From contig DASUHB010000033.1 of NCBI GenBank assembly GCA_036273715.1, positions 1-64,000 of the forward strand: DNA of 64,000 nt. The letters run 5' to 3'. Source of the DNA: Gemmatimonadaceae bacterium. Its GTDB lineage: Bacteria; Gemmatimonadota; Gemmatimonadetes; Gemmatimonadales; Gemmatimonadaceae. Below, one piece after another: positions 15,798-61,899 of this stretch. Below the pieces are notes generated by a model that saw nothing but the letters and a program-made list of their open reading frames with translations, was not told where the DNA came from and searched no databases. Every line of letters starts with the position of its first letter. The stretch's first letter is position 1. The position numbers were made by a program, and so were the translations under genes.

Positions 15798-15869
15798 ATG
15801 TCGTTCTTGACCCAGCTCGTAACGTCGATGTACGCGGTCGTTGCGTCTGACACCGCACACTGGTGGTAA
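15798..15869 (+). CDS. 23-residue small ORF with near-perfect Shine-Dalgarno
   Basis: ATG at 15798 begins a 23-codon ORF ending TAA at 15867-15869; the peptide starts MSFLTQLVTS and ends HWW. GGGAGGTGA (15783-15791) lies six bases before the ATG, the strongest ribosome-binding site in the window, with an AT-rich-free but clean spacer. It is followed at once by a weak hairpin and a CTCTTTTT run, then the HD-GYP gene 41 bases on. It could be a regulatory leader peptide (tandem Trp codons at the end) or a free small protein. No protein homology is known to me. Confidence 0.5.
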   Translation: MSFLTQLVTSMYAVVASDTAHWW

Positions 15870-15896
15870 GACCCGGGGACGGGGGTTCCTCTTTTT
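15870..15896 (+). terminator. Possible attenuator between small ORF and HD-GYP gene
   Basis: GACCC (15870-15874) can pair with GGGTT (15883-15887, one G-U pair) over an 8-base loop and is followed by CCTCTTTTT. The stem is weak but this is one of the few T-runs in the window. Its place directly after the small ORF stop suggests transcriptional attenuation of the downstream gene. Confidence 0.3.
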
Positions 15897-15910
15897 CGCA
15901 AGCGGTGCGA

Positions 15911-17242
15911 ATGAACCGGGTGCGACTGTACGTGTCGGGTGTGGCGTTGGGCGCCGTGGCTGCTGCCATCTGCGTCTATTGGGTCGCGCCGGTGGTCGAT
16001 GCCGGTTCGATTCGGGCCGCGCTGTGGATGTCCGGGTTGTCGGTGTTCGCGCTGCTGTTGGTGTACCAGTTGCCGGCCGGCGCCGGCGGGTCGATCGGGT
16101 TCATCCCGTTCACGGCCACGGCGCTACTCTCACCCAATTGGATCGCGGTGGTCGCGGTCGCGGTGACGAACATCATCACCGAGATCATCAGCATTCGCGA
16201 CGGAGTCAAGAAGGTTTTCAACGTGGTGCAGATGTCGCTGGCGACCTCGCTGGCGGTACTGTCGTACTTGTTGTTAGGCGGGAAGCCGTTGTTGCAGTAC
16301 AGCGGGATGAGCGCGCCGCAGGCGCTGGCGACGGTCGGCGTGCCGTTCTCGGTGATGGTCATCGTGTTCGTGGCCGTGAACACCGTGGCGGTGAGTGGCG
16401 CGATCGCGACCAACGACAGCAAGAACCTGTTGAAGGTCTGGCGCCAGAATCACCTGGGCAGCCTGGCGTACGACGTGCTCGCGAGTCCGGTGGCGTTCCT
16501 GCTCGCGTGGTGCTACGCGCGCTTCGGCGCCTTCGGCGCGTTGGTACTCGCGCTGCCGCTGTTGGGCGTGCGACAGTTGTACAAGACGAACCGGCAGCTC
16601 GAGCGGGTCAACCAGGAGCTGCTCGAGTTGATGGTCAAGGCGATCGAAGCGCGCGATCCGTACACCTCCGGTCACTCGCGGCGCGTGTCGCACTATGCGA
16701 AGCTCATCGCTCGTGCGTTAGGCCTGTCGTCGCGCGAAATCGAACGGATCGCGACCGCGGCGCTGCTGCACGACGTCGGCAAGATCCACGAGATTTACGC
16801 GCCGATTCTGCGCAAGCCGGACAAGCTCACGGCGGACGAGTGGGCGGTGATGCAGACGCACCCGATCAAGAGCGCGGAGCTGGTGTCGACCGTGTCGCAG
16901 CTCCGCGATCTGGTGCTGCCGGTGCGGCACCACCACGAGAACTGGGACGGCAGCGGGTATCCGGACGGCCTGGCCGGCGAGCAGATTCCGTTAGGCTCTC
17001 GCGTCGTGCTGATCGCGGACACGATCGACGCCATGACGACGGACCGCCCCTACCGTAAGGCGTTAGGCGAGGTGCAGGTGCGGTCGGAGCTGGCCAAGTA
17101 TCGCGGCCGCCAGTTCGACCCGAAAATCTGCGACGAGCTGCTCGCCAGTCCGATGTTCGGCCTGCTGTTTGCCTCGCCCGCGCAACGCGACGCCGCGCCC
17201 GCTTCGCGGCCCAAGGACATCTCGATCGCGCAGCTCGCCTGA
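15911..17242 (+). CDS. Membrane-bound HD-GYP domain phosphodiesterase
   Basis: The 443-residue protein has an N-terminal membrane part with about six hydrophobic segments (roughly residues 5-210), then a short coiled linker (RQLERVNQELLELMVKAIEA) and a complete HD-GYP domain. The metal residues are in GHSRRVSHY, LLHDVGKI, the later HHENWDGSGYPDG with the GYP motif, and ADTIDAMTTDRPYRKAL. HD-GYP enzymes hydrolyse cyclic-di-GMP to GMP or pGpG. It therefore fits the probable cyclic-di-GMP riboswitch at 59.7 kb. ATG 15911 is preferred; an in-frame GTG at 15863 would overlap the small ORF. The leader suggests RNA-level regulation. Confidence 0.9.
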   Translation: MNRVRLYVSGVALGAVAAAICVYWVAPVVDAGSIRAALWMSGLSVFALLLVYQLPAGAGGSIGFIPFTATALLSPNWIAVVAVAVTNIITEIISIRDGVKKVFNVVQMSLATSLAVLSYLLLGGKPLLQYSGMSAPQALATVGVPFSVMVIVFVAVNTVAVSGAIATNDSKNLLKVWRQNHLGSLAYDVLASPVAFLLAWCYARFGAFGALVLALPLLGVRQLYKTNRQLERVNQELLELMVKAIEARDPYTSGHSRRVSHYAKLIARALGLSSREIERIATAALLHDVGKIHEIYAPILRKPDKLTADEWAVMQTHPIKSAELVSTVSQLRDLVLPVRHHHENWDGSGYPDGLAGEQIPLGSRVVLIADTIDAMTTDRPYRKALGEVQVRSELAKYRGRQFDPKICDELLASPMFGLLFASPAQRDAAPASRPKDISIAQLA

Positions 17243-58786: not shown

Positions 58787-59638
58787 ATGAATCCGTTTCG
58801 CTCGATTTCGCGCGGTGCGTACGTGCTGGGCGGCATCGCGTTGGTCGTGGCGGCGGCGTCCGGCGCATTTCTGTATTCGACGCTGCAAGTGCGGTACCGG
58901 CGGGACATCAGCCGGATCGTGTTCAACCGCAACTGGGATCTGCTCGACCAGGTGCGGCGCGATGCCGGCGTGACGGCCGACTCGCTGCGCCGGGCGATGG
59001 CGGAGGCGAGTCCCGGCCCGGATGCGGACAAGCCGTATATCGTGGTGAGCATCTCCGACCGCCGGCTGTGGTACAAGTTAGGCGACAGCGTGTTCTACAC
59101 GACGCGCGTCGCGGTGGGCAGCGGCAAGACGCTGGTGAAGCAGGACGGGCGCGACGAATACAAGTTCGACACGCCGCGCGGCCGCCTCACGGTGCAGAGC
59201 AAGGATGCGGGCCCGGTGTGGGTGCCGCCCGATTGGCACTTTCTCGAGATCGCCGAGAAGCGAAAGCTCGGCGTGGTGATGCTCAAGCGCGGACAGAAGG
59301 TGCCGGCGGCCGACGGTTCGGTGATCATGGTCGACGGCAACGACGTCGTGAAGAAATATCCGGACGGACACGAAGTGCCGTACGAGTCCGGCGAGGGCCG
59401 CGAAATCGTCGACGGAAAGAACATCATCGTGCCGCCTTACGGAACGAATCAGCGCAAATACCGTGGCACGTTAGGCGGCCATCGGCTGAATCTGGGTGAC
59501 GGCTACGCCCTGCACGGCACCGATGAGCCCAGGTCCGTGGGCGAAGCGACGAGCCATGGGTGTGTGCGCTTGCGCAATGAAGACATCGATTATCTGTACG
59601 GCATCGTTCCGGTCGGAACGCCCGTGTACATTTATTGA
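58787..59638 (+). CDS. L,D-transpeptidase (YkuD family)
   Basis: L,D-transpeptidases form 3-3 cross-links in peptidoglycan or attach lipoproteins to it. The 283-residue protein has an N-terminal transmembrane helix (about 10-30), then VVSISDRRLWYKLGDSVFYT and the active motif HGTDEPRSVGEATSHGCVRLR, where His257 and Cys259 are catalytic. A short spacer of 30 bases follows its pseudo-enzyme neighbour. An AT-rich palindrome overlaps its stop, and the riboswitch follows. Confidence 0.9.
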   Translation: MNPFRSISRGAYVLGGIALVVAAASGAFLYSTLQVRYRRDISRIVFNRNWDLLDQVRRDAGVTADSLRRAMAEASPGPDADKPYIVVSISDRRLWYKLGDSVFYTTRVAVGSGKTLVKQDGRDEYKFDTPRGRLTVQSKDAGPVWVPPDWHFLEIAEKRKLGVVMLKRGQKVPAADGSVIMVDGNDVVKKYPDGHEVPYESGEGREIVDGKNIIVPPYGTNQRKYRGTLGGHRLNLGDGYALHGTDEPRSVGEATSHGCVRLRNEDIDYLYGIVPVGTPVYIY

Positions 59639-59654
59639 CCGTTTGGTCAGTCAA
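59635..59654. promoter_or_regulatory. Palindromic operator-like site (TGACC-GTTT-GGTCA)
   Basis: TTGACCGTTTGGTCAGTCAA has a perfect TGACC/GGTCA dyad with a 4-base centre. Its TGA is the stop codon of the L,D-transpeptidase gene. Such symmetry is typical of TetR/MarR-type operators, and the site sits upstream of the riboswitch region. No matching regulator gene is near. Confidence 0.35.
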
Positions 59655-59719
59655 GTTGGCTTGTAGACACGGGTTGCGGGTTACCGCGAAGTGCGTCCCC
59701 CCTAAGGTTATTGGAAGTT

Positions 59720-59831
59720 CCTCCCCCGTCGTGACGGGGGCTCCTTGCCAAGGGCAAGTCGGCTGCGAAAAGCCGACGCGCAAAGCCAAGAGACGGCCCC
59801 GTCGTTGCCGTCAGTCTGGTTGCCGGGGAGG
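59720..59831 (+). ncRNA. Probable GEMM-I (cyclic-di-GMP) riboswitch controlling tandem M15 peptidases
   Basis: The region matches the GEMM-I layout: GCCAAGGGCAAG (5' core, pattern GCNNAGGGCAA), a hairpin GTCGGCT/AGCCGAC with a GAAA-containing loop, GCGCAAAGCC (consensus RCGCAAAGCC), a second hairpin with GACGGC/GCCGTC, and GGTTGCCGGGG at the 3' side. GGGGAGG (59825-59831) is both the 3' conserved end and the Shine-Dalgarno of the gene at 59837. CCTCCCC (59720-59726) is perfectly complementary to it, while CCCCCGTC/GACGGGGG (59723-59740) makes a competing hairpin. This points to translational control. The class call is from memory of the consensus, not a search. Confidence 0.6.
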
Positions 59832-59836
59832 CGCCG

Positions 59837-60826
59837 ATGGTCCGTGCACATACAGGCGCGCATCGCTTCGCGCGCGCCATTCGAGTCGTCGGTGCAGGAA
59901 TCGCACTCGCAGCGGCCGCAGGCGCGGCACCGCGCGCTGACGCGGCGCGCGTTCCTGTTTCGTCGCGCGATTCGATCGACGCGCCCATTCCGGCCCGCGC
60001 GCCGCTTCCCGCCAAAGCAGGTCTCTGGTTTCTCGACTCACTCGTGGGCCGCAGCGGCAAACTTCGCGCGCTCTTCGTGAGTCCGTCGCATCCGTACGGC
60101 GTCGATGCGCTTCAAGAATTGTTCGGCGACAGCGCACTCGATCGGCCCGGTGTCTACGCGGTTCATGATAGCGCTCTAACGCAACCGCTCTGCTTCATCT
60201 CGCTCGTGCCGTTCGCCGCAAAGCAAAAGGGACGCATCGGATCCTATTGGCTTGGCACTTGGCCGCACGAACGGCACGCGTCTCGCGACTCGATGTACGC
60301 CGATCCGGATGGCTTCATCGAAGTCACACCGGAGAACGAGGACACCTGGGTGTCGGAGCACTTTCAACTGCGCGACTTCCTAACGCACGACCAGGAAGAC
60401 GTGTGGCCCAAGTACCTCGCGCTGAGCCCGAAGTTGGTCGACAAGCTCGAGCTCGTGATCGATGATCTGAATGCGCACGGCGTCGACGTGACACACCTGA
60501 CGGTCATGTCGGGGTTCAGGACGCCGGAGTACAACAGACGCGGCGTGGGCAAGCGCGGTGGTCGTGCTCGCGACAGCCGTCACCAGTATGGGGATGCGGC
60601 GGATGTGTTCGTCGACAACACCGAGTCGGGCCGGATGGATGATCTCAATCACGACGGGCGCGTGAATCTTCGGGACGCTCGCGTCATTCGCGATGCGGTC
60701 GATCGCGTGGAAGCAGCACACCCCGATCTGATCGGCGGAGTGGGGCTGTATCACGCGACTCGTGCGCACGGACCATTCGTGCACATCGACACGCGCGGTG
60801 AGCGCGTGCGCTGGAGCGCACGGTGA
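59837..60826 (+). CDS. Secreted M15-family peptidase (D-Ala-D-Ala-type), copy 1
   Basis: The 329-residue protein has an N-terminal signal or anchor segment (about 12-32), then a variable part, then a zinc peptidase domain of the M15 (DUF882-like) type: SGFRTPEYNRRG, DSRHQYGDAADVFVD (the metal motif SxHxxGxAxD) and HGPFVHIDTRG with the second His. An EF-hand-like loop DLNHDGRVNLRDAR sits between them. It likely cleaves D-amino-acid bonds in peptidoglycan. It is controlled by the upstream riboswitch, whose Shine-Dalgarno is GGGGAGG. The stop overlaps the GTG of copy 2. Confidence 0.82.
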   Translation: MVRAHTGAHRFARAIRVVGAGIALAAAAGAAPRADAARVPVSSRDSIDAPIPARAPLPAKAGLWFLDSLVGRSGKLRALFVSPSHPYGVDALQELFGDSALDRPGVYAVHDSALTQPLCFISLVPFAAKQKGRIGSYWLGTWPHERHASRDSMYADPDGFIEVTPENEDTWVSEHFQLRDFLTHDQEDVWPKYLALSPKLVDKLELVIDDLNAHGVDVTHLTVMSGFRTPEYNRRGVGKRGGRARDSRHQYGDAADVFVDNTESGRMDDLNHDGRVNLRDARVIRDAVDRVEAAHPDLIGGVGLYHATRAHGPFVHIDTRGERVRWSAR

Positions 60827-61899
60827 TCAGCGGCCGGCCGTCAGCTTCCGGTCGGCATCTCATGCTCCGAGCGGCCTCGGCAACGGGCCGCCACCTAACA
60901 AAACTGCTCAAGCTGACATTCTGGGGCGGCGCCGCCGCAGGCGTCATCGGCTGGTATCATCCCCCGGGCGCGCTTGCGACTGCCACCGCGCCTCGACTTG
61001 TGGTCGACAGTTCCTTCGGCGCCCTCGCTCTCGAGGCGACACCGGCGCCCGAAGCACTCGGTAAGAGTGGCGAGCTCCGACTTGCCGTTGCCATGCCCGG
61101 CGAGGCTGTCGACTATCCGATTACGATGCCTGACGACACGCTCACGCTACGTTACGCGTGGGAGCGCGTGTCTGATTCGCAGTTGGAAGACAGTGCGCGC
61201 GCTTACTCGGGCGACACGCTTGTCGCGCCCGAGCAACCGGGCTTCTACCGGCTCACGCTGATTCACGGCACGCAGCAGCACGTGGTCGACGGCATGTCGC
61301 TCGCCGTGATGGTGCCGTTTGACGAAAAACACGGTTTGTCCCTCGACGGCTACAAGATCGGATGGTACCGCGGCGAGCGGCATCGCGCGGATTCGACCGA
61401 TCGTCCCGAAGGCTTCGTGAAGGTGACGTCGGACGAAGTCGACTTGCCGATATCGGCGCACCTCCGCCTGGGCGATTTCCTGTCGCGGGACGGACAGGAG
61501 ACGTGGCCGCGGTATGCGGCGATCGATCCGCGTGTGTTCGACAAACTCGAGCTGGTGCTCGAGCGCATCTCGCGGTCGCTCGGCCGCGAGCGCGGCGATG
61601 TTCCGGTCGAACTCGATCTACATTCTGGATTCCGGACGCCCGCGTACAACCGGCATGTGCCTCGTGCCGCCAGGGACAGTCGCCATCAGTTTGGCGATGC
61701 ACTCGACGTCTCGATCGATGCGGACGGAAACGGCAAGATCGATCGCAAAGACGCCCGGCTCGTTGCCGCGGCCGTGGACTCGGTCGAAGCGGAGTATCCC
61801 GACCTGGTGGGCGGCATGGGAGTGTACACCAGCCGCAGATATCGTCATCCTTACGTGCATATCGACGTGCGAGGCCGCCGCGTTCGCTGGCACGGTTGA
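60823..61899 (+). CDS. Secreted M15-family peptidase, copy 2
   Basis: The 358-residue paralogue of the preceding protein keeps DLHSGFRTPAYNRHV, DSRHQFGDALDVSID (metal motif), an EF-hand-like DADGNGKIDRKDAR and RHPYVHIDVRGRRVRWHG at the C-terminus. Its N-terminal half (about 40-190) is quite different, with strand-rich sequence (RLVVDSSFGALALEATPAPEAL), suggesting a separate binding domain. GTG 60823 overlaps the first copy's stop, so the same riboswitch may control both. The two probably act on different wall substrates. Confidence 0.8.
   Translation: MISGRPSASGRHLMLRAASATGRHLTKLLKLTFWGGAAAGVIGWYHPPGALATATAPRLVVDSSFGALALEATPAPEALGKSGELRLAVAMPGEAVDYPITMPDDTLTLRYAWERVSDSQLEDSARAYSGDTLVAPEQPGFYRLTLIHGTQQHVVDGMSLAVMVPFDEKHGLSLDGYKIGWYRGERHRADSTDRPEGFVKVTSDEVDLPISAHLRLGDFLSRDGQETWPRYAAIDPRVFDKLELVLERISRSLGRERGDVPVELDLHSGFRTPAYNRHVPRAARDSRHQFGDALDVSIDADGNGKIDRKDARLVAAAVDSVEAEYPDLVGGMGVYTSRRYRHPYVHIDVRGRRVRWHG

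Follow-up and report, generated by a model that had tools for sequence, protein, structure and literature searches.

We report a leader RNA of a Gemmatimonadaceae bacterium that almost certainly belongs to the c-di-GMP-I riboswitch family, in which the Shine-Dalgarno (SD) sequence of an M15 peptidase gene, here called M15a, is itself the 3' strand of the aptamer stem P1. The identity of the aptamer, its conservation, the overlap between P1 and the SD and the order of the genes around it were directly established in the window, the 64-kb stretch of DNA that was analysed as a whole, and in related genomes. As the ribosome-binding site sits within an aptamer stem, c-di-GMP most likely switches the peptidase off. 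The riboswitch very probably acts on translation; the OFF direction, suggested by the anatomy of the leader and by comparison with Vc2, is likely at a somewhat lower level of confidence.

In a cmscan search of the whole 64-kb window, c-di-GMP-I (RF01051) was the sole RNA family above its gathering cut-off, matching positions 59743-59827 of the + strand over the full model length (1-87) with 47.0 bits and an E-value of 4.7e-6, against a curated gathering cut-off of 35 bits. Matches to CRISPR-DR9 and isrG fell below their cut-offs and were discarded as chance. The genome contains four c-di-GMP-I copies, and the one described here has the lowest score. The core claim of the initial annotation, that GEMM-I elements run into the SD in front of an M15 peptidase gene, is thus upheld, its motif strings lying where it had placed them, and it also withstood the covariance-model search, with matches both here and in orthologous leaders. 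The RF01051 alignment and an alignment of 13 orthologous leaders (the M15 leaders) show a P1/P2/P3 three-way junction with a conserved core, with P2 at 59754-59781 and P3 at 59784-59821 (both +). The G at 59753, the A at 59782 and the C at 59823, all on the + strand, align with the Vc2 bases that we take to be G20, A47 and C92 in Vc2 numbering. The equivalents of G20 and A47 are present in 13/13 M15 leaders and that of C92 in 12/13, all three occurring together in 12/13, the exception being the copy in genome G003. Position 20 discriminates the ligand, A20 being the mark of GEMM-Ib sensors of cGAMP (PMC6456294); this A is absent from all 13 M15 leaders, which carry the G of the c-di-GMP type. 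From these bases we infer that the ligand is probably c-di-GMP.

The periphery of the aptamer departs from that of its relatives. A P3 tetraloop receptor was found in 0/13 M15 leaders versus 31/32 canonical c-di-GMP-I leaders of the clade, and P2 ends in a hexaloop, GCGAAA, without a GNRA tetraloop. The hairpin with a GAAA-containing loop that had been noted before does exist, but its GAAA is part of this hexaloop and is missing from nearly all orthologous leaders. Since the GAAA lies in a hexaloop here and is rare in orthologues, and the receptor is missing in every leader, this GAAA is distinct from the GNRA tetraloop that docks in typical GEMM-I RNAs. Docking is not needed for the Rfam score, so we treat it as typical, not defining, for RF01051. 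In Cd1, changing the tetraloop adenines abolished binding (PMC9262584), which together with the absent receptor suggests that the affinity for the ligand may be low. The c-di-GMP-I-GGC family (RF03167) shares a short P3 without receptor; its consensus has GCGAAG where the window has GCAAAG, and its scores, 42.5 bits at this leader and 49.3 bits at locus L041, are below the cut-off of 59, placing both outside that family.

The SD, GGGGAGG (59825-59831, +), is separated by 5 nt from the ATG at 59837. Its best-conserved partner is an anti-SD strand, CUCCUUG (59741-59747, +), which pairs with CGGGGAG (59824-59830, +) to form P1, a pairing that the initial annotation overlooked. CUCCUUG is kept, with the SD inside P1, in 12/13 M15 leaders, and 97.4% of P1 cells are paired across the 13 aligned leaders. 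No compensatory changes were found in P1 among these leaders, the variation being on one side only; since the 3' strand is fixed as the SD, covariation cannot prove this stem. Furthermore, the 9-nt P1 strand may well complement the SD by chance in these GC-rich loci (p 0.02-0.15 each), so the claim for P1 rests on conservation and not on single-locus odds. The same 5' strand has an alternative partner in the aptamer core, a "switch" hairpin CCUU/AAGG (59743-59753, +) that is possible in 12/13 M15 leaders and in 0/32 canonical c-di-GMP-I leaders of the clade, with a further pairing, CUUGCC/GGCAAG, within 59744-59758. Its core strand AAGG (59750-59753) includes the G20 equivalent, and CUCCUU folding back on it would occupy this base and block ligand binding. 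A free core would instead let P1 form and hide the SD, so that ligand binding and SD exposure are mutually exclusive on paper.

The spread of the leader was followed with R1, a covariance model trained on nine leaders from orthologous genes and running from P0, the hairpin upstream of P1, to the ATG. R1 matches 13 of 179 Gemmatimonadaceae genomes, from five genera, with 61-143 bits, and all 13 matches directly precede an M15a orthologue; four of the matching genomes were outside the R1 training set (genus g32; G036, G108, G110 and G111). A wider search at class level found no match of more than 57 bits outside the family, and the top-scoring matches there did not lie before an M15 gene. Relatives of the downstream gene were found in Gemmatimonadaceae/Gemmatimonadetes metagenome assemblies, with up to 97% identity. 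Many syntenic M15a genes have no leader, from which we conclude that it was gained or lost within the family. Also, in two genomes of genus g5 (G009 and G041) an M15 gene is preceded by a canonical c-di-GMP-I aptamer that has an SD next to it. Standard pairs occupy 94% of cells in the 13 aligned leaders, and 11 pairs (four in P0, four in P2 and three in P3) have both partners changed, where sliding the structure gives 3-6. A degenerate leader, with the core GGGCAA and one C of the GCC contact changed, stands before an intact M15 gene in genome G003 (L043:1358-1501), a natural case of loss of sensing.

P0 (59723-59740, +), directly 5' of P1, has 7 bp and the loop CGUG; four of its seven pairs changed on both sides and 82% of its cells are paired in the 13 leaders. 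The pairing CCCCCGTC/GACGGGGG described in the initial annotation exists at this site but comprises only seven pairs (59723-59729 with 59734-59740), because an eighth would leave a 2-nt loop. Overlapping the 5' arm of P0 is a candidate 5' anti-SD, CCTCCCC (59720-59726, +), whose perfect complementarity to the SD at 59825-59831 was confirmed base by base over 7 bp. In the window this complementarity outdoes that of same-locus windows (p=0.041), and in the fold model the ensembles with P0 and with CCTCCCC paired to the SD tie at -65.4 kcal/mol. In this sense, the idea of a CCTCCCC/SD switch is partly supported at this locus, but most orthologues do not pass the same comparison: the 5' anti-SD is seen in the window and in L049, L079 and L042, is weak or absent in L039, L043, L044 and L045, and is less conserved than P1. 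Comparing the fit of each 5' flank to its own SD and to those of other leaders is uninformative among the M15 leaders (p=0.92), since their SD is nearly invariant. A clean two-state switch built from the CCTCCCC/SD pairing alone is unsupported, as the SD would be covered by P1 as well as by CCTCCCC.

In ensemble calculations, accessibility of the SD drops when the aptamer is formed in 12/13 leaders (e.g. from 0.59 to 0.14, from 0.57 to 0.06 and from 0.32 to 0.02), the bound-state figures following from the enforcement of P1. The changes are large in L041, L045, L049 and genus g32, and small in the close relatives of the window, in which the SD is already covered by other pairings. In the window itself the SD is masked at equilibrium without ligand too (accessibility 0.11 vs 0.07), mostly by the 5' anti-SD, and the aptamer-formed ensemble lies about 6 kcal/mol above the tie, before any ligand or tertiary contribution. 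No terminator was found between the aptamer and the ATG, and terminator-based control was rejected on this ground. No consensus sigma-70 promoter was found in the 200-nt gap, and a TAnnnT-like box 5' of P0, conserved only loosely, is too weak to be claimed as one.

We consider it likely that this c-di-GMP-I riboswitch represses translation of M15a at high c-di-GMP, and probably that of the second M15-like gene downstream (M15b). Ligand binding would close P1, take up the SD as the 3' strand of this stem and so hide the ribosome-binding site; without ligand, CUCCUUG would pair with the purine-rich aptamer core and leave the SD open or less tightly bound. P0 would shield the second anti-SD, CCTCCCC, within its own 5' arm. 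The model of the initial annotation, an ON switch in which CCTCCCC covers the SD until c-di-GMP releases it by favoring P0, appears unlikely to us. It has in its favor the tie between the two ensembles and the behavior of canonical leaders (n=24), whose 35-nt flank 5' of the aptamer fits their own SD better than the SDs of other leaders (-13.8 vs -11.8, permutation p=0.0004) and beats same-locus windows (Fisher p=2e-10; 11/24 below 0.1). These flanks suggest that canonical leaders possibly have an expression platform upstream of the aptamer. However, ligand-bound M15 leaders would already have their SD hidden in P1, the 5' anti-SD is not found throughout the orthologues, and fold models give no ligand-dependent release even in canonical leaders, where the test of direction by equilibrium folding showed no ligand-dependent shift.

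The same SD mechanics would hold if the leader sensed cGAMP or another cyclic dinucleotide, as the divergence of the aptamer, its 42.5 bits with RF03167 and the absent tetraloop receptor might suggest; the conserved G20, A47 and C92 equivalents and an RF03167 score under the cut-off speak against it, and we judge this quite improbable. Slightly less credit still is due to a relic or structural leader without switching, whose hairpins merely tune translation: the loss of the tetraloop/receptor pair, the degenerate copy in G003 and the many M15a genes without any leader fit with it, but the contact bases and the switch hairpin are kept over five genera and P0, P2 and P3 show compensatory changes. 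A c-di-GMP-responsive switch that hides the SD within P1 remains our preferred explanation.

The locus begins with a gene for an SH3-like protein and continues with two more genes, the second encoding a YkuD L,D-transpeptidase (58787-59638, +; PF03734, 86.2 bits, syntenic), then the riboswitch, M15a, M15b and a DUF1232 gene. M15a (59837-60826, +) encodes an exported-type M15 peptidase (Peptidase_M15_2 / DUF882; Pfam 36.3 bits over a cut-off of 27). Scores with the M15 peptidase models PF05951 / PF08291 were 36.3 bits over 27 and 27.7 over 23.2. The zinc/catalytic motif of M15a, SRHQ.GDA.D plus HxD (HxxGxAxD...HxD), is invariant in 19 homologues. A sequence search of M15a against solved structures gave no match, and a fold search with its AlphaFold model (mean pLDDT 70) finds M15 carboxypeptidases/endopeptidases of the PDB with weak E-values. 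M15b (60823-61899, +) begins with GTG and overlaps the stop of M15a by 4 nt, from which its translation is likely coupled to that of M15a. The nearest NCBIfam model for both proteins is MepK (NF053624), an equivalog model that scores 32.5 bits against a cut-off of 185, so that MepK, the L,D-endopeptidase of E. coli with which they share the M15 zinc-site motif, is only a distant relative. Enzymes of the MepK type are hydrolases of L,D cross-links (PMC12729407, PMC10792238). M15a may cut those made by the neighboring YkuD transpeptidase. Since the switch lies between the transpeptidase and the MepK-like M15 genes, c-di-GMP may limit the cutting of L,D cross-links; it would set only the cutting side of their balance. 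Additionally, M15a has an EF-hand/dockerin-like loop (DLNHDGRVNLRDA, ~60630-60670) between the zinc-motif segments that is near-invariant in homologues, and calcium control of the peptidase is possible. An inverted repeat, TGACC...GGTCAGTCA (~59637-59656), follows right after the stop codon of the transpeptidase gene and is kept in the riboswitch-less loci L110 and L112 too; it may be a terminator or operator.

The genome encodes enzymes of c-di-GMP signaling, with 11 GGDEF and 2 EAL matches. The HD-GYP gene that had been placed at 15.9 kb was recovered as an HD-GYP-like membrane protein at 15863-17242 (HDVGKI...HHENWDGSGYPDGL), consistent with c-di-GMP turnover. Most canonical c-di-GMP-I RNAs of the clade precede genes for secreted proteins or lipoproteins (among them L002, L003, L008, L013, L022 and L030), many with Ig-like repeats, and one precedes a subtilase with PKD-like repeats. 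In canonical Gemmatimonadota leaders (L001-L036) the 5' flank or P0 hairpin complements the leader's own SD, about 110 nt downstream, beyond what chance gives and better than the SDs of other leaders. In family f2, three c-di-GMP-I aptamers (L193, L194 and L196) are followed by a shared non-coding stretch, TCGCTCACATCGGGTTCTAGGGCGCACGGTGT, with no obvious gene, and in L196 by a strong hairpin, CCCCCTGGGGAAACCCAGGGGG; these are perhaps stand-alone c-di-GMP-binding RNAs. As a tentative idea, to which we give a modest minority chance, one aptamer family in Gemmatimonadota would serve two opposite platforms, the common leaders of surface lipoproteins with a P0 anti-SD being ON switches and M15 leaders with the SD in P1 being OFF switches for a peptidase pair that cuts L,D cross-links, so that a single signal would make sessile cells both show adhesins and stiffen their wall.

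The closest precedent is Vc2 of Vibrio cholerae, described as an OFF switch of translation that P1 governs (PMC9262584). The M15 leader shares its aptamer family, its contact bases and, as predicted here, P1-governed translational OFF control, and differs in having the SD as the P1 3' strand, an additional conserved P0, lost docking and a peptidoglycan peptidase as target. Control of such a peptidase by c-di-GMP had seemed new, which is not wholly so. In Geobacter, GEMM-Ib (cGAMP) switches control the lipoprotein transpeptidase operon GSU0181-0183 (PMC6456294), again a GEMM-I RNA on peptidoglycan-active enzymes; those have A20 and expression falls without cGAMP (ON), whereas the M15 leader has G20 and is predicted to be a translational OFF switch. 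Also, the c-di-AMP (ydaO/kimA) riboswitch of Corynebacterium nlpC, probably translational, acts on a cell-wall peptidase (PMC9960051), through an unrelated aptamer, another ligand and an NlpC enzyme. Our literature search found no paper joining a c-di-GMP riboswitch with Gemmatimonadota. Judging known GEMM-I contexts through later papers, the new features are the SD as P1 3' strand together with the core-decoy hairpin, the conserved P0, the lost tetraloop docking and the M15 target. If the proposed mechanism is true, it would constitute a compact switch with the aptamer core as decoy for the anti-SD strand, and it would link c-di-GMP directly, through an RNA, to the balance of synthesis and cleavage of L,D cross-links in the peptidoglycan of a little-studied phylum.
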